Of a stretch of 64,000 nucleotides of DNA, positions 793-50,499 are shown piece after piece. The translations under genes and the position numbers were made by a program. How positions within the stretch are numbered: the first letter of the stretch is position 1; every line of letters starts with the position of its first letter. The stretch lies in assembly GCF_010119975.1 (NCBI RefSeq), contig NZ_CP048222.1:7974501-8038500 (forward strand), given 5' to 3'. The notes below the pieces were generated by a model that did no database searches, was not told the origin of the DNA, and was given only the letters and a program-made list of their open reading frames with translations. This stretch comes from Rhodocytophaga rosea (GTDB lineage Bacteria > Bacteroidota > Bacteroidia > Cytophagales > 172606-1).

Positions 793-1734
793 TTACTCAG
801 CCTGGAATTGCACTTCGGCCGGCATTCCGATTTTCAGGCTGCCATCATTAGTTACCAGTATTTTCATGGCATATACCAGATTTACCCGTTCATCTTTGGT
901 CTGGATCACTTTGGGTGTGAACTCAGATTTACTGGAAACCCATTGCACCGTGCCTGCATATTCTTTAAAGGTGTCATTAGGGGCATCCACCAATACTTTC
1001 ACTTTACCACCAGTTTTTACATTCACCAGCTGGTCACCACTTACATAGGCACGTAATACTAGCTTATTTAAATCAGCGACTTTATATAAAGGCTTGCCAT
1101 AACTCACGACTTCTCCAGGTTCTGCAAAACGGATGGTAACGGTTCCCGGTACAGGATTTCTAATAATTGATTTCTGGATCTGGTCATTAAGCCGCTCAAT
1201 CTGTTTTTGCAGAGGTAAAGCTTCCGATTGTACGCCTGATTTCTGAGTGGAAAGGGCAGAGGCTTGCGCTGTTTTTTGCTTTTGTGTCAGGGCAATTTGG
1301 CGTTCCAGTACACTGATCTGGGAGAGGATGTCATCTAACTGTTTCTTCGGAACTGACTCAGCAGCCAGCAGGTTTTCTGTCCGTTTTTTCTCCCGTAACA
1401 AAGTATTGAGCTGCTCTTGTTGTACGGCGATCTGATTTTCATAAAAAGATACTTGTGTATTAACATTAGGTGTACGGGAGGAAACCGCCTGCAGACTTGC
1501 CAGAAGCTGCTCTTTTTGCAAAGCGAGCTGCAGTGTATCCACTAAGCCAACTGTTTCGCCGCTGTTGAGTTGTTTACCTTCTTCCACGGTAAAAGATTCC
1601 AGCATGCCGGTTGCCTGGGCAGAAACGATGGTTTCCACCGCTTCAAAATTTCCATAGGCATCCGACTGGTCATTATTACGGTTGCATGCCCAGAAACTTG
1701 CAGCCGCAGTAATCAGGATTAAAATAGTTTTCAT
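793..1734 (-). CDS. HlyD-family periplasmic adaptor (membrane fusion) lipoprotein
   Basis: This is the periplasmic adaptor of the efflux system, bridging the inner-membrane ABC exporter and the TolC channel. The 313-residue protein starts with a lipoprotein signal ending in SFWAC, then has a biotinyl-lipoyl-like half-domain (ATGMLESFTVEEGKQLNSGE), a long Gln/Leu-rich coiled-coil hairpin at about residues 70-190, the second lipoyl half (RNPVPGTVTIRFAEPGE) and a beta-barrel region. Length and order fit the HlyD/YbhG type. It sits 48 bp downstream of tolC and about 70 bp upstream of the ATPase gene, all on one strand, so co-transcription from the operator-bearing tolC promoter is likely. Confidence 0.92.
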   Translation of the reverse strand: MKTILILITAAASFWACNRNNDQSDAYGNFEAVETIVSAQATGMLESFTVEEGKQLNSGETVGLVDTLQLALQKEQLLASLQAVSSRTPNVNTQVSFYENQIAVQQEQLNTLLREKKRTENLLAAESVPKKQLDDILSQISVLERQIALTQKQKTAQASALSTQKSGVQSEALPLQKQIERLNDQIQKSIIRNPVPGTVTIRFAEPGEVVSYGKPLYKVADLNKLVLRAYVSGDQLVNVKTGGKVKVLVDAPNDTFKEYAGTVQWVSSKSEFTPKVIQTKDERVNLVYAMKILVTNDGSLKIGMPAEVQFQAE

Positions 1735-1782
1735 ATAAAATATTAATGATTGAATGAGAAGTATCGGTTATTGTGATGAAGT

Positions 1783-3054
1783 TTAATTTCCTGACAGAGT
1801 CACATATTGTAGCTTAGCCATTTGCCATTGGAGGCGATGCAGATTCTGATTCAACAAAGCTTCACTTTCCTGGTTGAGTTCGCTGATATAATCTCTGGCA
1901 GCAATAGCCCCATTTTCCAGCTGGGTACCTGCACTTTGTTTGATCTTGGTCCGTAAGGCTACAATTTCTTTGTCCTGCTCCAGCATGGCCTGATAGCGTT
2001 CCACTTCTGATTGTTGCTGCCTGAGTTGCAGCGCCAGATTCTTTTCAAATGTCTCCTGACGGGTTTGGATGATTTGTTTCCGCAGGGAATGTATTTGTTG
2101 CTCTCTTCGCAGATTATAGCCATTGGAAATAGGCCAGCTTAACTTAACACCTCCCAGGAAAAAACTCCGGAAATCGTTGTTGAGAAAATTGAGTGCCGGA
2201 CGGCCTGCGCCAGTCTGGGCAAAAGCGCTCAGCCGGGGTTGCAGACTGCTGCCAGTAAGCTTATTCTGAATATCGACTTGTGAACGTTGCAGGGTAAATA
2301 CCTTTACCTGCGGATGATTACTTGTCGTTACATGTGCGATGCTTACTTCTTCTGTGCCCAAACTTAAAGGCGTAGTGGCTTCAACCGGTAGTCCGGTAAG
2401 TAAAGCCAGCATTTCTTTCAATCCTTTCCTGGAAATCTGAAGTTCACTCAGTTTCTGGGTAGTTTTCAGGTATTCGGCTTGCAGGGCATCTGCTGAGGTT
2501 TGGGCGGCAGTCCCATATCTGACATTGGCAGAGAGTTTATCAATTCTGTTTTTTAGGTCTTTTTGCAAAGTTTCCAGCAGTTTCATATTCTCTTCAGCAA
2601 GCTGGGCGTTCAGGAAAAAAAGATTTACCTGCTCTTTCAGCTTTTGTAATTCTACTTCTACCTGCTGTACTTCCAGGGCAGTAGTTTCTTTCTGTAATTT
2701 TTGCTGTAAGCGATTCGCATCACCATCGTAGAGGGCATAACTGGCATCCAGGGTAACTTTGTACTGGTCTTTGCTCAACTGAGGTACTTGTATTCCAGGC
2801 AATTCAATGGGGAGCCTGGTTACTTCCGATTGCCAGGTAGCTTGTCCGTTTATAGAAGCTTGCGGAAGCCAGCGGTTCACTTTTAAGTTCAGTACCGATA
2901 ATGCACCAGTTTGAGAAAGCAGTCCTTTCTGTTTGACATAAGGATAATGTTGTGCTGCTGCCTGATAACATTGCGCAAGGGTAAGCGTATCCTGTGACCA
3001 GGCAGGGAGTATTGTTGATATCAAACAAACAATTCCTACAATAAGCGTTTTCAT
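1783..3054 (-). CDS. TolC-family outer-membrane efflux protein
   Basis: This is an outer-membrane channel of the TolC/OEP family, forming the exit duct for the adjacent ABC/HlyD system. The 423-residue protein has a Sec signal (ILPAWSQ), the typical start TLTLAQCYQAAAQHYP and two repeated helical hairpins rich in Leu, Gln and Lys (about residues 130-220 and 330-415). The ATG at 3054 is the first gene start after the TetR gene. A palindromic operator lies 22-47 bp upstream, so this is probably the first gene of the regulated exporter transcript. Confidence 0.92.
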   Translation of the reverse strand: MKTLIVGIVCLISTILPAWSQDTLTLAQCYQAAAQHYPYVKQKGLLSQTGALSVLNLKVNRWLPQASINGQATWQSEVTRLPIELPGIQVPQLSKDQYKVTLDASYALYDGDANRLQQKLQKETTALEVQQVEVELQKLKEQVNLFFLNAQLAEENMKLLETLQKDLKNRIDKLSANVRYGTAAQTSADALQAEYLKTTQKLSELQISRKGLKEMLALLTGLPVEATTPLSLGTEEVSIAHVTTSNHPQVKVFTLQRSQVDIQNKLTGSSLQPRLSAFAQTGAGRPALNFLNNDFRSFFLGGVKLSWPISNGYNLRREQQIHSLRKQIIQTRQETFEKNLALQLRQQQSEVERYQAMLEQDKEIVALRTKIKQSAGTQLENGAIAARDYISELNQESEALLNQNLHRLQWQMAKLQYVTLSGN

Positions 3055-3075
3055 ATAAATAAAAATTTGTTTTTT

Positions 3076-3101
3076 AACATGTGTTTTAAACAGGTGTTTA
3101 A
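3076..3101 (-). promoter_or_regulatory. Putative TetR operator upstream of tolC
   Basis: Bases 3086-3101 form a perfect inverted repeat, TTAAACA and TGTTTAA with a 2-nt spacer. A further half site, AACA at 3076-3079, stands 2 nt before the core TGTTTTAAACA (3082-3092). The same three-part arrangement recurs upstream of tetR at 3766-3791. It lies 22-47 bp upstream of the tolC start, in the promoter position. Binding by the adjacent TetR protein is inferred. Confidence 0.75.
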
Positions 3102-3118
3102 CGCAGGTATAAAATTTT

Positions 3119-3730
3119 TTACTTTACCTTTAAATAAGCCATAATCATTTCCGGAATAATTTTTTTCCGCTCCTCCATAAATTTTCTGAACCCTTCCTCA
3201 TTCAGGTCACCCATATACGAAATAGCCGGACGAGCCAGAAAAGGAAACACGACATTACCTAAAATTGAAAAAATAATATGCAGTGGGGCTACCTCCCGGA
3301 TATTCCCTTTTTGTATTTCTTCCTGCAACTGTTTGGTAAAATAGGAGTTACGGATCACTTCCCGTACATTTAAATCTTTAAAAAGTGTATTTCCATCTTC
3401 TCTGTTTTCTGACAGTACAAACATCGGCATTAGCGGATTTTCCATAATCAGATCGGTATATTTATCCACTATTTTCCAGATTTTTACTTCCAGGGGCGTT
3501 TCTTCATTCAATAACATCACAATCTTTCCAAACAATACACCAAAAGTTTCTTTGTAAACACTTTTGAATAGTTGCTCTTTGCTCCGGAAATAATAATTTA
3601 CCAAGGCAACATTCACTCCGGCTTCTTCCGCGATCTGGCGGATTTTAGCCCCATCAAATCCCTGTCTCAAAAATACCCGCCTTGCTGCCTCTTTGATCCG
3701 GTTCTGCGTATCTAGTTCTTCTTTCATCAT
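3119..3730 (-). CDS. TetR/AcrR-family transcriptional repressor
   Basis: This is a one-component repressor that likely controls the downstream exporter and itself. An N-terminal helix-turn-helix covers about residues 10-55 (AARRVFLRQGFDGAKIRQIA, then VNVALVNYYFRSKEQLF). The C-terminal ligand domain resembles the CecR/YbiH-like class. The frame extends to a TTG at 3742, but ATG 3730 (or 3727) is the better start. The protein is about 203 residues, usual for the family. It stands 64 bp upstream of tolC on the same strand. Identical operator architectures before tetR and tolC argue for autoregulation and exporter control; the ligand is unknown. Confidence 0.92.
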   Translation of the reverse strand: MMKEELDTQNRIKEAARRVFLRQGFDGAKIRQIAEEAGVNVALVNYYFRSKEQLFKSVYKETFGVLFGKIVMLLNEETPLEVKIWKIVDKYTDLIMENPLMPMFVLSENREDGNTLFKDLNVREVIRNSYFTKQLQEEIQKGNIREVAPLHIIFSILGNVVFPFLARPAISYMGDLNEEGFRKFMEERKKIIPEMIMAYLKVK

Positions 3731-3765
3731 ATGATGTAACAAAGGTTATAAATTTTAGTGAATGC

Positions 3766-3791
3766 AACAAATGTTTTAAACAGATGTTTAA
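3766..3791 (-). promoter_or_regulatory. Putative TetR operator and promoter upstream of tetR
   Basis: Bases 3776-3791 are TTAAACA, 2 nt, TGTTTAA, with an extra AACA half site at 3766-3769, the same layout as the tolC site at 3076-3101. On the minus strand the site overlaps a TTTG suited to a -33 element, followed about 20 nt later by TAACCTTTG, close to the phylum's -7 box. Repressor occupancy here would block tetR transcription. This is inferred from sequence symmetry only. Confidence 0.7.
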
Positions 3792-3841
3792 TGAGTGGTT
3801 AAAAATGGATAGTGAAGTGGTAATTTTTATAGTTGAAGTGT

Positions 3842-3884
3842 AAAACAAAAAAGCGAAGCGCATGATTTTATTCACACGCTTCGC
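3842..3884 (-). terminator. Rho-independent terminator of the 3908-4969 lipoprotein gene
   Basis: Read on the minus strand, the arms GCGAAGCG and CGCTTCGC (3877-3884 and 3853-3860) enclose a 16-nt loop and are followed by a run of six T and TTTT. It begins 24 bp after the stop codon of the upstream minus-strand gene and separates it from tetR. Confidence 0.8.
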
Positions 3885-3907
3885 CTTTATAATGATGAAA
3901 ATATAAA

Positions 3908-4969
3908 TTACTGATACTGGATATACAATGGTTTTGGATTCAGAGAAAGCACATCTTCCGGTTTCATCAGGCTCCAGCCATTCCGGGTATCATTTTTATA
4001 GAATAGCTTAAATCCGGTATACTGTACAGGTTCTCTTACGATATACCGGCGGTAGGTATCTTTCTTCAGCGTTCCGGAACCCCATCCATCCATGTGCATA
4101 ACGATCTGAACCCTGGGATCAAGTTTAATTTTGTCGGCATTGGTGATCATTTTCTGTGTAAAGCGGTGTACAACAAATACCTTGGGAGGCAGATTGTGCT
4201 GGGCAACCAGATCAGCCAGGTAGGACGTTGCATAATTGATATCTTCGGCATCGAAAACGCCCATGTAATCTCCTGGCACATGGTCTTCACGCATAGCAAA
4301 TTCTGCATCGATGGCAAAATGTACATTGGGGCGGCTCAGCAGATGTGCCAGACGAGGAATTTCGTCCTGCAAGGTGCTATGTCCGATCTGAATGTCAATG
4401 AATACAATGGCATCCCGTTTGGCAGCCCAGGCAATTACATCTTCCGCTACTTTATCCGTCATACGGAGGCGGTACTTTTTATCTCTGCCGGGGGCACCTT
4501 GTGCCGTTACCATGATCACATGTAAGGCAGGTTGAATGGGAGTTTCCGGATCGGCTTTTTTCCAGGCTTCTATTTCTTCGTCCAGCTTGGCAAGCATATC
4601 ATCAGGAGGCAATTCTCCCAGAATCCCCATGCGTTTAGAAAGCGGGTTGCCATAAAAAGCGATAATTCTCTTTTCAGGCAAAATAGAACCAGGCAATGGA
4701 TCAGGTAATTTGGGCCATTCTACGGGAGCGGAAGGTTCAATTTTTTTTATCTCACTATCTTTTAGTTCTGCCAGCCGGATGGAATCCTTGCGTAATGAAT
4801 CGGCAAGGGCTTGTTTTCTGGCGGCGATAATGGCTGTTGAGTCTATCACCTGAGCTTTTACAATGGCTTTAGGCTCTGTCTCCAGTTTAGCTACAGTTTT
4901 GGTTTCGCAGCTGTACAACATACATACAGATAAAAAAGCTGCAATACCCTTTGTATAGTTCATAATCAT
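3908..4969 (-). CDS. Conserved lipoprotein of unknown function, possible TIM-barrel-like fold
   Basis: I do not recognise a named family. From ATG 4969 (or 4963) the protein has a short lipoprotein signal ending MLYSC, a charged linker to about residue 75, and a globular domain of about 275 residues. That domain starts IIAFYGNPLSKRMGILGE and contains ALHVIMVTAQG, IVFIDIQIGHS, HFAIDAEF, KVFVVHRFT and VQIVMHMDGWG. Alternating hydrophobic strands ending in Asp, Glu or His suggest an alpha/beta barrel like glycosidase-type folds; this is inference. The frame is open upstream to 5281, but that extension lacks a signal sequence and looks non-coding. The gene has its own terminator at 3842-3884. Confidence 0.72.
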   Translation of the reverse strand: MIMNYTKGIAAFLSVCMLYSCETKTVAKLETEPKAIVKAQVIDSTAIIAARKQALADSLRKDSIRLAELKDSEIKKIEPSAPVEWPKLPDPLPGSILPEKRIIAFYGNPLSKRMGILGELPPDDMLAKLDEEIEAWKKADPETPIQPALHVIMVTAQGAPGRDKKYRLRMTDKVAEDVIAWAAKRDAIVFIDIQIGHSTLQDEIPRLAHLLSRPNVHFAIDAEFAMREDHVPGDYMGVFDAEDINYATSYLADLVAQHNLPPKVFVVHRFTQKMITNADKIKLDPRVQIVMHMDGWGSGTLKKDTYRRYIVREPVQYTGFKLFYKNDTRNGWSLMKPEDVLSLNPKPLYIQYQ

Positions 4970-5625
4970 TTTAGAAAAATCTAATAGTGGCGCTGCACAT
5001 TTACGAATTTTATTGAGTAAAGATTCGGGATGCCAGCGCCTTTTATACACCTGTTTTAACGCAGGCAATTTGTTTATTAAATCAGTAAATGCCAAATCAC
5101 TTCTTTGTGGTAAAACATAGGTAACGTAAGGAAGTGGAATTTCTTTTTTCAAATCTTTCCTGGGAAATGAGGGTTGGAATAAACCAGAATGAAAAATAAT
5201 GCCGCCAGGGATAAATACACTGGTAATTACTATTAAATATGCTTTTTGCGAAAATGTATGAATTCGCCTTATTCTCCACAAAATGGGATATAGTCAAGCC
5301 TTCACACCAGCAGATATACTGCGGGAATTAAGCAGGCATGCCTGAAATGTGGTTACTTTTTCAGGCTGATATTTTGCCTTAATAAGATATTTTTACTGCA
5401 ATAGTTTTGTAATTTACCCTTTGTAGCTTGCATCCTGGGAATGGGCTAATGGGGATTGTGCTGACTTTGAAAAATGAACTGGTTCTGGGTGCATTCCAAC
5501 ATTCAGATTCTGGCAGCGATCCTTGTGTTTACTCATTTTAAAATCTATAAATTGCCGGCTAAAGAGTAATTGCATGCCAGATTCAGTATGTTCTTGCGCA
5601 CCTCACTAACCATCAGACCACTTAT
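4970..5625. other. Intergenic region between divergent lipoprotein genes
   Basis: This region separates the divergent genes starting at 4969 (minus) and 5626 (plus). It holds a possible 31-codon membrane ORF (5474-5569) and a possible plus-strand promoter: TAGTTTTG at 5402-5409 with TTTTG about 25 nt earlier. The first 300 bp keep the minus frame open, but the translation there does not look like a protein. Nothing else stands out. Confidence 0.5.
5474..5569 (+). CDS. Possible 31-residue membrane peptide
   Basis: This short ORF runs from ATG to TAA and encodes one hydrophobic segment (IQILAAILVFTHF) ending in the basic tail KIYKLPAKE, the form of a small single-pass membrane protein. It lies about 65 bp downstream of a TAGTTTTG promoter-like box and 56 bp before the next gene. 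With no homologue recognised it could equally be chance coding in a leader. Confidence 0.25.
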   Translation: MNWFWVHSNIQILAAILVFTHFKIYKLPAKE

Positions 5626-6498
5626 ATGAACCGAAGTTTTCCTGCAAACTTATTTTTGATAGGGATTTGTTTATTTACGGCTTGTTCCGGTAAAAGACCG
5701 GATGCAGCTGCGGCCGGAAAAGCAATTTCCTATGATTTAAATTCCCCCGATGATAAAATGTTTTTGCCCTATGAAATTGAAGAAATTTCCGGCTTATCTT
5801 ATCTGAGTGAAGACAAACTGCTTGCTATTCAGGACGAACAAGCAATCATCTATACCATAGATATGAAAGAAGAAAAGATTGCTAGTGAACAGAAGTTTGG
5901 TAAAAATGGCGATTATGAAGGAGTGGAGGTAGTCGGTGAGTTTATATTTGCCGTCAGAAGCGATGGAACTATTTACAAAACGTCTATACAAGCAACCGAT
6001 GAATCTGCTACTGAAGTATTTGATACACCATTATCTCACAAAAATGATGTGGAAGGTTTAGCCTACGATGTAGCTAACAATCGATTACTTCTGGCTTGTA
6101 AAGGCATTTCCGGGATTAAAAATGATATTCCTGGTAGCAGGGCCATCTATGCTTTTAATCTGTCAGATAATACCCTGGCTGAAGAACCAGTTTTTTTGTT
6201 AAAAATCGATCAAGTCAATGCAGCGCTTGGCAATAGTGATACGAAAGACCATTTCCGGCCCTCTGGTATTGCCGTTCACCCGGTTACCGGGCAGATATAC
6301 ATCATTGCTTCGGTGGGAAAAGTATTGATTGTATTGAACAAAAATGGTAGTATTGACACCGTAACTCAGCTGGCATCAGCCGAATTTAAACAGCCGGAAG
6401 GTATTTGTTTTTCTCCCAATGGTGATATGTTTATTTCCAACGAAGGCAAAGGAGGCCGGTCTACTATTCTCAGATTTAATTATGCAAAGAATGAATAG
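5626..6498 (+). CDS. SdiA-regulated-domain lipoprotein (YjiK-like beta-propeller)
   Basis: The protein has a lipoprotein signal ending LFTACSG and a propeller-like domain. Recurring features are EEISGLSYLSEDKLLAIQDE, GDYEGVEVVGEFIFAV, DVEGLAYDVANNRLLLACKG, FRPSGIAVHPVTGQIYI and PEGICFSPNGDMFISNEG, the pattern of the SdiA-regulated family. Biochemical function is not established for the family; it is envelope-anchored and sometimes compared to phytase-like or NHL propellers. The gene's 3' end overlaps the start of the phosphoesterase-barrel gene, so the two are probably translated from one message. Length (290 residues) fits the family. Confidence 0.85.
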   Translation: MNRSFPANLFLIGICLFTACSGKRPDAAAAGKAISYDLNSPDDKMFLPYEIEEISGLSYLSEDKLLAIQDEQAIIYTIDMKEEKIASEQKFGKNGDYEGVEVVGEFIFAVRSDGTIYKTSIQATDESATEVFDTPLSHKNDVEGLAYDVANNRLLLACKGISGIKNDIPGSRAIYAFNLSDNTLAEEPVFLLKIDQVNAALGNSDTKDHFRPSGIAVHPVTGQIYIIASVGKVLIVLNKNGSIDTVTQLASAEFKQPEGICFSPNGDMFISNEGKGGRSTILRFNYAKNE

Positions 6499-48306: not shown

Positions 48307-49107
48307 ATGGATGTAATCAAAAGAAATAATGTACAGGTAAAGGGCAGGGGCGAACAGGCGATGGTTTTTGCGCATGGCTTTGGGTGTGACCAGCATATGT
48401 GGCGTTGGATAGTACCAGCCTTTGAGGAGCAATACCGGATTGTTTTATTCGACCATGTAGGTGCCGGGCAGTCCACACTTTCAGCCTATGATCCGATTAA
48501 ATACGATTCCCTTCAGGGCTATGCTGACGATATACTTGAAATATGCGATACACTTTCATTAAAAAAGCCGATCCTGGTGGGCCATTCGGTAAGCGCCATT
48601 ATTGTTATTCTGGCAGCCATAAAAATGCCTCATTACTTTGACAAACTGATTCTGGTAGCACCTTCTCCGTGCTATATTAATCAAAATGAGTATGTAGGGG
48701 GATTTTCCAGAAGCGATATTGATGGTTTGCTGGAATCAATGGATCAGAATTATTTAGGCTGGTCAAGTCAGATGGCGCCGGTTATTATGAGCAACCAGGA
48801 AAAACCGCAGTTAGGAGAGGAATTGACTAATAGTTTTTGCCGGACAGATCCTGATATTGCCAGGCATTTTGCCAGGGTAACCTTTCTTTCAGATTACCGG
48901 GCAGTATTGCCTTTGGTATCGGTTCCGACATTAACCTTGCAATGTTCGCATGATGTAATTGCACCACTTTCTGTAGGAGAATATATGCATCAACACTTAC
49001 CCAAAGATACCCTGGAAATTTTGCAGACCACCGGCCATTGCCCGCATATGAGTGCTCCCCAGGAAACAATAGAAGCCATAAAGAATTTTTTGACATTAAA
49101 TAGTTGA
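48307..49107 (+). CDS. Alpha/beta hydrolase of the KAI2/D14/RsbQ family
   Basis: The 266-residue protein matches RsbQ and plant KAI2 receptors closely in pattern: HGFGCDQHMWRWIVPAF, LFDHVGAGQSTLSAYD, the elbow VGHSVSAIIVILAAIK with Ser94, VAPSPCYINQNEYVGGF, Asp216 in QCSHDVIAP and His244 in TGHCPHMS. The full triad suggests a ligand-hydrolysing sensor. In Bacillus RsbQ works with the PAS phosphatase RsbP; here a PAS kinase gene starts 9 bp downstream on the same strand, pointing to one operon and a shared signal. The ligand is unknown. Confidence 0.92.
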   Translation: MDVIKRNNVQVKGRGEQAMVFAHGFGCDQHMWRWIVPAFEEQYRIVLFDHVGAGQSTLSAYDPIKYDSLQGYADDILEICDTLSLKKPILVGHSVSAIIVILAAIKMPHYFDKLILVAPSPCYINQNEYVGGFSRSDIDGLLESMDQNYLGWSSQMAPVIMSNQEKPQLGEELTNSFCRTDPDIARHFARVTFLSDYRAVLPLVSVPTLTLQCSHDVIAPLSVGEYMHQHLPKDTLEILQTTGHCPHMSAPQETIEAIKNFLTLNS

Positions 49108-49116
49108 TATATTTTA

Positions 49117-50370
49117 GTGGAGAACGGTAAATACGTAAATACATCTGATTATCAGAAATTTTTAGAGGAAAGTGCAGAAGAGCTTTATCACAATGCTACG
49201 TGTGGGTATTTATCTTTTCTCAAAGGTGGCCTGATCGTAAAGCTGAATAAAACCTTGTTAGACTGGCTGGGATATACGCAGGAAGACATATTGCTACAAA
49301 AGAATTTTCAGGACCTGTTACACATCGGAGGTAAAATTTATTTCGAAACGCATCTGGCTCCTTTACTTCAAATGCAGAGTTCTTTCCGGGAGATAAGCCT
49401 GGATCTGTATCGGCGTGATGGCAGTACTTTGCCTGTACTGGTTAATGCCATTCAAATAAAAGATGATATGGGCCGGCCTGTTCTGAACCGGCTCACATTG
49501 GTAAATATAAACGACCGCAGAAAATACGAACAGGAATTACTGCTGGCTAAAAAAAAAGCGGAATTTATAAGCGAGGAATTAGCCTATGCAAACACACAGT
49601 TAACAGCCGCAAATCAGGAAATTATGGCCGGCCAGGAAGAATTGCTGGCCACTAATCAAAACCTGGCAGAGGTGAATCGCCAGCTCACCCGGCTGAATAA
49701 TGAATTAGATACCTTCATTTATACGGCTTCCCATGATCTGAAAGCGCCTATCCTGAACATAGAAGGTTTGCTGAAAGTTTTGAAGCGGGAACTCAGTACC
49801 GAGAGGCCACAACCTGAAAAAGTGCAACATATCTATGCGATGCTCTATGATTCTGTAGAACGTTTTAAGTTAACAATCCAGCATCTTACGGATGTAGCCC
49901 AGGTAAATAAACCTTCCCAGGATGAAGAAATCCCCATTCTCATGAGCGAAGTCCTGTTTGAGGTATTGAAAGATCTTTCTCCCCAGATTACTGAGGCAAA
50001 CGCTGAAATCAAACTGGAGCTTGGTTCTGCAAAAGTTCGTTTCTCGCAAAAAAACCTGAAAAGTATTCTGTATAATCTTATATCCAATGCAATTAAGTAC
50101 CATTCTCCAAAAAGGAAACCAGTAGTAAATATTTCTATGCAGGAAGAAACAAGTTATCAGGTACTTATTGTGGAAGATAATGGACTGGGAATAGATATGG
50201 CGAAGAAAGAAAAAATATTTGGCCTTTTTCAACGCTTGCATAGCCATGTTTCCGGTACAGGCATTGGTTTATTCATTGTTAAAAAAATGGTGGAAAATGC
50301 CGGCGGAAAAATAGATGTTGAAAGCCGGATCGATATAGGGACTACTTTTAAAATATACTTTCAGAAATAA
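49117..50370 (+). CDS. PAS-domain sensor histidine kinase coupled to a KAI2/RsbQ-type hydrolase
   Basis: The 417 residues have a PAS domain (about 20-137; LSFLKGGLIVKLNKTLLDWL, YRRDGSTLPVLVNAIQI), a coiled coil (138-198, AANQEIMAGQEELLATN) and a kinase core: H-box ASHDLKAPILNIEGLL with His206, N-box LYNLISNAIKYHSP, G1 DNGLGIDMAKKEKIFGLFQR and G2 GTGIGLFIVKKMVENAGG. No membrane helix is seen, so it is cytoplasmic. It starts with GTG. The tight link to the hydrolase suggests that the hydrolase product or state is read by the PAS domain. No response regulator lies nearby. Confidence 0.9.
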   Translation: MENGKYVNTSDYQKFLEESAEELYHNATCGYLSFLKGGLIVKLNKTLLDWLGYTQEDILLQKNFQDLLHIGGKIYFETHLAPLLQMQSSFREISLDLYRRDGSTLPVLVNAIQIKDDMGRPVLNRLTLVNINDRRKYEQELLLAKKKAEFISEELAYANTQLTAANQEIMAGQEELLATNQNLAEVNRQLTRLNNELDTFIYTASHDLKAPILNIEGLLKVLKRELSTERPQPEKVQHIYAMLYDSVERFKLTIQHLTDVAQVNKPSQDEEIPILMSEVLFEVLKDLSPQITEANAEIKLELGSAKVRFSQKNLKSILYNLISNAIKYHSPKRKPVVNISMQEETSYQVLIVEDNGLGIDMAKKEKIFGLFQRLHSHVSGTGIGLFIVKKMVENAGGKIDVESRIDIGTTFKIYFQK

Positions 50371-50464: not shown

Positions 50465-50499
50465 AAAAGTGGAATAAGATTTTTTCTTATTCCACTTTT
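50465..50499. terminator. Bidirectional hairpin terminator
   Basis: The arms AAAAGTGGAATAAG (50465-50478) and CTTATTCCACTTTT (50486-50499) pair perfectly with a 7-nt loop; A and T tracts lie on both sides. It sits between the PAS kinase and convergent susD-like gene and can serve both. Confidence 0.85.

Follow-up and report, generated by a model that had tools for sequence, protein, structure and literature searches.

An RsbQ-type hydrolase gene next to an RsbP-class PAS histidine kinase in Rhodocytophaga rosea

In the 64,000-nucleotide stretch of the Rhodocytophaga rosea genome that we analyzed (NZ_CP048222.1, positions 7,974,501 to 8,038,500; hereafter, the window), the gene for an RsbQ-type alpha/beta hydrolase is followed by the gene for a soluble PAS histidine kinase. 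The features of this pair, with the basis for each, are:

48307..49107, + strand: RsbQ-type alpha/beta hydrolase, 266 amino acids, ATG start, triad S94/D216/H244 (ORF list, Pfam, structure-chain matches, tree)
49117..50370, + strand: soluble histidine kinase (PAS, helical linker, HisKA/HATPase_c), 417 amino acids, GTG start (ORF, Pfam, alignment, model)
49117..49506, + strand: RsbP-class PAS domain, residues ~1-130, with a long F-alpha helix at 70-87 that carries K73, Y75, F76, H79, and P82 (class positions, model)
49507..49710, + strand: predicted helical linker, residues ~131-198; in the model it continues without a break as the DHp helix (one helix, 131-228)
49732..49734, + strand: codon of H206, the predicted phospho-acceptor (SHDLKAP; alignment)
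49657..50367, + strand: kinase core; a paralogue at another place in the R. rosea genome shares 57% identity with it
50465..50499, no strand: hairpin between the pair and a convergent SusD-like gene, a possible terminator (scan; such sites are no commoner than in shuffled sequence)

Both open reading frames are present as an earlier note on this DNA described them, with S94, D216, and H244 at the positions it gave and nine bases between the hydrolase stop and the kinase GTG. (The GTG start is putative, as it is a mechanical ORF call.) The note had also called the second protein a kinase, and Pfam confirms this output: behind PAS_9 (3.6e-11) come HisKA (2.2e-5; 24.8 bits, just below the Pfam cut-off of 26.9) and HATPase_c (4.1e-21). 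Across 38 aligned RsbQ-linked kinases, the window's among them, H206 never varies, and neither do H79 and P82 in the PAS domain.

An AlphaFold2 model of the kinase (38 sequences; mean pLDDT 91.5, pTM 0.60) has a PAS fold, the long helix at the place of F-alpha, a kinase core, and a linker that is predicted, in this single-chain model, to form one helix with what follows it. A fold search with the model ranked 8a6x first, 9a5d (WalK) second, and 4gcz third, with TM-scores to the query of 0.33-0.41. Whole-chain matches were poor overall (TM-scores of 0.33-0.44, and rmsd mostly >25 A among the full-length ones). Because of these low scores, we consider that the domains match but that their arrangement differs. 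Light is the input of soluble LOV-histidine kinases. Two of these, 8a6x and 4gcz, resemble the window kinase in having a PAS-type domain, a helical linker, and a kinase in a single soluble chain, but their TM-scores to it are only 0.33-0.35, and the window PAS has a hydrolase for a neighbor.

A divergent OsmC-like gene borders the pair on one side, and a convergent SusD/SusC pair does so on the other. The six neighboring genes that we scanned (OsmC-like, a flavin disulfide reductase, SusC/SusD, and others) share no common theme, and no response regulator gene was found among them. Scans around the pair found four promoter sites (8.6 expected from shuffling) and one hairpin (2.6 expected); as these counts are below the shuffled expectation, we set the scans aside as evidence.

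Among structure chains, the hydrolase scores E = 6e-95 with B. subtilis RsbQ (1wom; residues 3-263), 7e-77 with 3qvm (Olei00960), and 3e-63 with 7ukb ("alpha/beta-hydrolase"), whereas the best chain named D14L, KAI2, or D14 is rice D14L/KAI2 at 9e-61. In a tree that included the window protein and left out distant outgroups, an RsbQ clade with the window protein inside it was split from the KAI2-like and plant proteins at 100/100. (The tree with distant outgroups was made without the window protein.) Given 6e-95 against 9e-61, the window hydrolase is, by sequence, RsbQ proper and lies further from the plant receptors. The earlier note had placed it very close in pattern to both RsbQ and the plant karrikin/strigolactone receptors; the likeness to RsbQ is the greater one. 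A KAI2-like origin of the window hydrolase was ruled out by the match scores and the tree. The window protein resembles RsbQ over its full length, more than it does other alpha/beta hydrolases, has a Ser-Asp-His triad, and does not group with plant KAI2/D14, which have the same fold and triad but form a separate clade. The output of plant KAI2/D14 runs via F-box/SMXL partners. The ligand range of the window hydrolase could still overlap that of KAI2/D14.

We surveyed what lies beside relatives of this hydrolase in other genomes. Our first set comprised the best 80 of 274 relatives in GTDB contigs and 10 loci from a set of 59 relatives' genomes, 9 of which contributed (the tenth matching genome being the window's own). 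An RsbP-type PAS protein lies directly downstream in 86 of these 90 non-window loci, although the set is biased, as the 80 are the best-scoring of 274, and the 86 include one locus, L017, that holds no intact pair. The four loci without such a protein next to the hydrolase are L015, L016, L018, and L066. Clustering sorts the outputs behind the PAS domains into 53 kinases, the window's among them, and 34 SpoIIE/PPM proteins, and Pfam agrees with this clustering for the 19 of the 86 non-window partners on which it was run. At L017 (also L123; genome G002, a family mate), the hydrolase and the PAS-kinase are in broken partial frames, and the locus looks like a decaying pair.

Two draws of genomes gave similar counts. 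First, 395 Bacteroidota genomes, drawn evenly, were searched with the KAI2-like hydrolase L118 (discussed below) at E <= 1e-40. We found 24 loci in 22 of the genomes (R. rosea included), with misses possible because at most six first-look candidates were scored per genome. Of these loci, 23 score as RsbQ-type, and a PAS domain and kinase come next in 20 of the 23 (window included); L143 and L146 are unpaired, and L145 ends with its contig. Second, 349 Pseudomonadota genomes were drawn around G735 (the genome of L035), which had been chosen for having the pair. This draw gave 22 loci in 18 genomes, all of them RsbQ-type, and a PAS domain is next in 20 of the 22 (18 of 20 if G735's two loci are removed), the exceptions being L222 and L225. 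The outputs of these 20 PAS pairs are a kinase match in 11, a GGDEF motif in 5, and neither within the locus sequence in 4. Eight further genomes, which were picked through their loci, hold 12 loci; 9 have the PAS domain and three do not (L201, L202, and L205).

Seven RsbQ-type genes stand alone, with no PAS or kinase match beside them: L018 (the same as L120 and L146), L066 (the same as L202), L143, L201, L205, L222, and L225. Except for L143 and L222, each comes from a genome that has a paired gene as well, so that the lone one is an additional copy. The L066 gene (L066:4001-4810) is from Adhaeribacter rhizoryzae. As a control, we scored 7 of the 13 other alpha/beta hydrolases of the R. rosea genome: none of the 7 has a PAS domain, a kinase, or the input module described below within 1.5 kb.

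One of the 20 paired loci of the Pseudomonadota draw has the two parts in a single protein. In G1009, from Pseudomonadota, a single 585-amino-acid frame (L218:586-2340, - strand) joins an RsbQ-type hydrolase, an RsbP-type PAS domain, and a GGDEF domain. Pfam places the abhydrolase at 34-270 and the GGDEF domain at 424-578 and lists no PAS domain; the PAS domain, from about residue 287, comes from a profile match of 47 bits. The first set has 92 hydrolase frames, none of which is a hydrolase-kinase fusion, and no fusion of RsbQ with PAS is named where PMC3183031 mentions fusions. So the adjacency from which the earlier note had argued is conserved in Bacteroidota, and the only fusion is a GGDEF protein of another phylum. 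We consider a functional link between the hydrolase and the PAS kinase to be well supported by these comparisons, together with the class positions and the co-divergence given below.

The PAS domain itself has the residues of the RsbP class. A previous study defined nine residues that distinguish RsbP-type PAS domains (C10, L13, L48, Q53, F55, C56, Y59, E72, and P86) and reported that the F-alpha change F55A breaks the RsbQ-PAS contact (PMC3183031). Mapped by the published spacing, without aligning the RsbP sequence, all nine positions fit the class in the window (C29, L32, L68, K73, Y75, F76, H79, E92, and P106), and P82 matches a further conserved proline, P62. We scored the same positions in 112 other RsbQ-adjacent PAS domains and in PAS relatives from the R. 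rosea genome as controls (5 of 6; all but L116 were placed). The class residue was found in this many of the 112 and of the 5 controls, respectively: C10, 97 and 1; L13, 66 and 0; L48, 97 and 3; Q53, 96 and 0; F55, 112 and 1; C56, 26 and 4; Y59, 101 and 0; P62, 109 and 0; E72, 108 and 0; P86, 95 and 2. Thus, in these sequences, F55, Y59, P62, E72, and Q53 discriminate the class well, unlike C56 and L48. The class residues are therefore of unequal value: C56 is present in only 26 and L13 in 66 of the 112 domains, and some controls match at L48, C56, and P86. At the equivalent of Y75, all 112 domains have an aromatic residue, and at the equivalent of H79, 101 of the 112 have H or Y. By eye, the alignment has NIN at the end of the window PAS and no DIT motif there; the RsbQ-linked relative L011 has DIT at its PAS end.

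The hydrolase and the PAS domain also diverge together. Between the window and a locus from the same genus (L009), identity is 65% for RsbQ, 58% for the PAS domain, and 27% for the kinase. In contrast, the best paralogue of the window PAS in its own genome is only 30% identical to it, as against 57% for the kinase core. In a tree, the window kinase is joined to its own-genome paralogue and not to L009 (85/87, unstarred). L009, L010, L019, and L020 each encode a hybrid kinase that includes a receiver domain, and the kinases of L011, L012, and L032 are 38-39% identical to the window kinase. The R. rosea genome (G000, 9 Mb) has 125 matches to the window kinase core, itself and some partial ones included, and its two-component repertoire is very large.

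Across 74 RsbQ-kinase pairs (those with a kinase core found, out of 113 partner proteins), distances correlate at r = 0.85 for RsbQ and PAS, 0.61 for RsbQ and kinase, and 0.55 for PAS and kinase; shared phylogeny inflates all three values, and mixed kinase subfamilies lower the kinase correlation, so that the contrast between them is the point. As partial correlations, PAS and kinase give 0.08 when RsbQ is controlled for, and RsbQ and PAS give 0.77 when the kinase is controlled for (for the latter, 0 of 2000 permutations were as high). In these alignments, the divergence of the PAS domain tracks the hydrolase gene and not the attached kinase. The kinase behind the window PAS was probably swapped in from its own genome, and the simplest reading of the direction is that the window lineage is the one whose kinase changed.

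Much of this arrangement has been described before. Adjacent RsbQ/RsbP-PAS pairs, 45 of them, were reported with PPM phosphatase, histidine kinase (in Gram-negative bacteria), or diguanylate cyclase outputs, together with two models, with the hydrolase as a producer or as a sensor (PMC3183031; Nadezhdin, Brody and Price 2011). A later paper restates the coupling of RsbQ to kinases and presents a complex of 2 RsbQ and 2 RsbP as modelled by AlphaFold2 (PMC12143880). The novelty implied by the earlier note, which had offered the pair as a two-component counterpart of RsbQ-RsbP with the hydrolase sensing or making a ligand, is therefore lost: both the RsbQ/RsbP-PAS-kinase pair and both models are in PMC3183031. 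As RsbQ-PAS with a histidine-kinase output was described in 2011, the window pair is of a known kind: it is a good new example of that arrangement and not a new system.

More specifically, the window pair shares with the published RsbQ-PAS module the order of RsbQ gene, N-terminal RsbP-class PAS, predicted helical linker, and histidine kinase, as well as the nine class positions. It differs in coming from Bacteroidota and in having a kinase core that is closest to a local paralogue. (The terms Bacteroid, Cytophaga, and Pedobacter are absent from the text of PMC3183031, its Figure 2 species list aside.) With B. subtilis RsbQ-RsbP, it has in common a homologous hydrolase, the gene order, the PAS domain, and the predicted linker, but there the output is a PPM phosphatase, while the window protein has HisKA/HATPase_c and no PPM/SpoIIE domain.

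We propose that a bipartite RsbQ-PAS sensor drives a cytosolic two-component kinase, and we give this reading a probability of roughly 85%. The RsbQ-type hydrolase would bind, and probably turn over, a small molecule. Its docking site would be the long F-alpha helix that the PAS domain presents in a kinase dimer, by analogy with B. subtilis RsbQ-RsbP, for which physical contact is established (PMC3183031). The resulting change would then be relayed by the continuous linker helix to the DHp helix, where it would alter autophosphorylation of H206, in one direction or the other, and the phosphate would pass to a response regulator encoded elsewhere. The hydrolase and the PAS domain would be the inherited unit, with the kinase behind them probably replaced by a local one in the window lineage. 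What the earlier note took from adjacency in one genome, that the hydrolase is coupled to the kinase's PAS domain, is now supported by pairs that recur across genomes, by the class residues, by the joint divergence of hydrolase and PAS domain, and by one natural fusion.

A second possibility is that the hydrolase is a producer only, and that its diffusible product is bound by the PAS domain with no contact between the proteins. Model 1 of the literature is the stricter version of this idea, since it assumes contact. The triad is intact in the window hydrolase, and the RsbQ triad is needed for signaling in B. subtilis (PMC3183031). However, the F-alpha residues that weaken the B. subtilis RsbQ contact when changed are among the most conserved in the RsbQ-adjacent PAS domains (112/112 and 101/112), and a diffusible product requires neither the fusion in L218 nor a PAS domain whose divergence tracks the hydrolase. 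So we consider it unlikely that the hydrolase acts as a producer only.

Third, the two genes could be metabolic or chance neighbors, with the kinase sensing something unrelated and the hydrolase being an esterase that is carried along. Adjacency in one genome is uninformative, the six flanking genes share no theme, and some RsbQ-type genes are unpaired. But the pair recurs in draws of two phyla, the class residues are present, none of the 7 control hydrolases is paired, and the kinase differs while the hydrolase and PAS domain stayed. This explanation is very improbable, and we strongly disfavor it. Finally, it is least probable of all that the window hydrolase is a bacterial karrikin/strigolactone-type receptor of the KAI2/D14 group: fold, triad, and the 9e-61 match to rice D14L (KAI2) are as that would have it, but RsbQ matches at 6e-95, the protein lies in the RsbQ clade (100/100), and the bacterial KAI2-like genes are a separate set with a different partner.

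That separate set includes genes of two family mates of R. rosea, G003 and G005, which carry a hydrolase that is 42% identical to the window's. The G003 hydrolase (L118) matches PpKAI2-like at 2e-71 versus RsbQ at 1e-61; by sequence, these KAI2-like hydrolases score closer to plant KAI2 than to RsbQ. In G003, the hydrolase gene (L118:603-1415) is followed by a 1495-amino-acid multi-PAS histidine kinase (1431-5918) and then by a receiver-PAS protein, and this gene order is repeated in G005 (L119). In G414 (L148:5390-8682), a 53% identical hydrolase lies ahead of an 827-amino-acid hybrid kinase that, over its first ~320 residues, shares homology with the start of the G003 kinase (24%, E = 1e-25). 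Within this input module of ~320 residues, Pfam finds only a weak PAS match at 172-209 (E = 0.025).

We then looked at the family of G414, in which 70 of 301 genomes match the hydrolase set at E <= 1e-60, and examined 30 loci, one from each of the best 30 of the 70 genomes. By score against L118 and the window hydrolase, 21 of these are KAI2-like (L151-L171) and 9 are RsbQ-type. The module is next in 16 of the 21 KAI2-like loci (in L156, only part of it is within the locus sequence) and in none of the RsbQ-type loci, whereas an RsbP-type PAS domain is next in all 9 RsbQ-type loci and in none of the KAI2-like ones. Five KAI2-like loci have neither (L159, L163, L169, L170, and L171). Conversely, a search for the module at E <= 1e-30 found 19 copies in 18 of the 301 genomes, and 16 of the 19 are directly behind an intact KAI2-like gene. 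Of the rest, one is behind a contig-cut gene (G624), one is behind a remnant (G449), and one is on a different contig from the hydrolase (G519). The G449 remnant (L192:1917-2291) is KAI2-like, lacks the middle of the gene (model positions 65-220), and lies directly ahead of the module protein. In the 395-genome Bacteroidota draw, the module occurs (E <= 1e-15) in one genome, which is the one that holds the KAI2-like hydrolase. None of the 22 loci of the Pseudomonadota draw is KAI2-like. In open-licence PubMed Central, we found no publication on this couple.

As to where the plant receptors belong, we make no claim that plant KAI2/D14 are nested among the bacterial KAI2-like proteins: such a nesting is present in the best trees (88/30, 93/71 with distant outgroups), but a grouping of the bacterial proteins alone is not rejected (p-AU 0.287). 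Because holding the bacterial KAI2-like set together gives that p-AU, we retain only the separation from RsbQ. The base of the outgroup tree is unresolved, and rooting of the plant tree has been found to shift with the bacterial sequences chosen (PMC5490202). Tentatively, and at a little short of even odds, we suggest that Bacteroidota have two matched couplings, RsbQ-type hydrolases with RsbP-type PAS domains and KAI2-like hydrolases (including those of G003 and G005) with kinases that carry the ~320-residue module, and that the latter system is the nearest bacterial relative of plant KAI2/D14.

The signal of RsbQ is unknown (PMC3183031, Discussion), as is the natural ligand of plant KAI2 (PMC10504578). 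With a kinase as its output, such a pair should lend itself to a simpler assay than the Bacillus stress network does, as purified hydrolase can be scored by its effect on kinase autophosphorylation. The difference in kinase between the window and its relatives amounts to a natural domain-exchange experiment, and it points to the hydrolase and the PAS domain as the unit. We consider the KAI2-like side result to be worth more than the window pair itself. A review, citing Wang et al. 2022, suggests that plant KAI2 possibly came from the transfer of a bacterial RsbQ (PMC10504578). With the KAI2-like couple, butenolide-type ligands could be sought in bacteria, and ideas on the origin of plant KAI2 could be put to the test.
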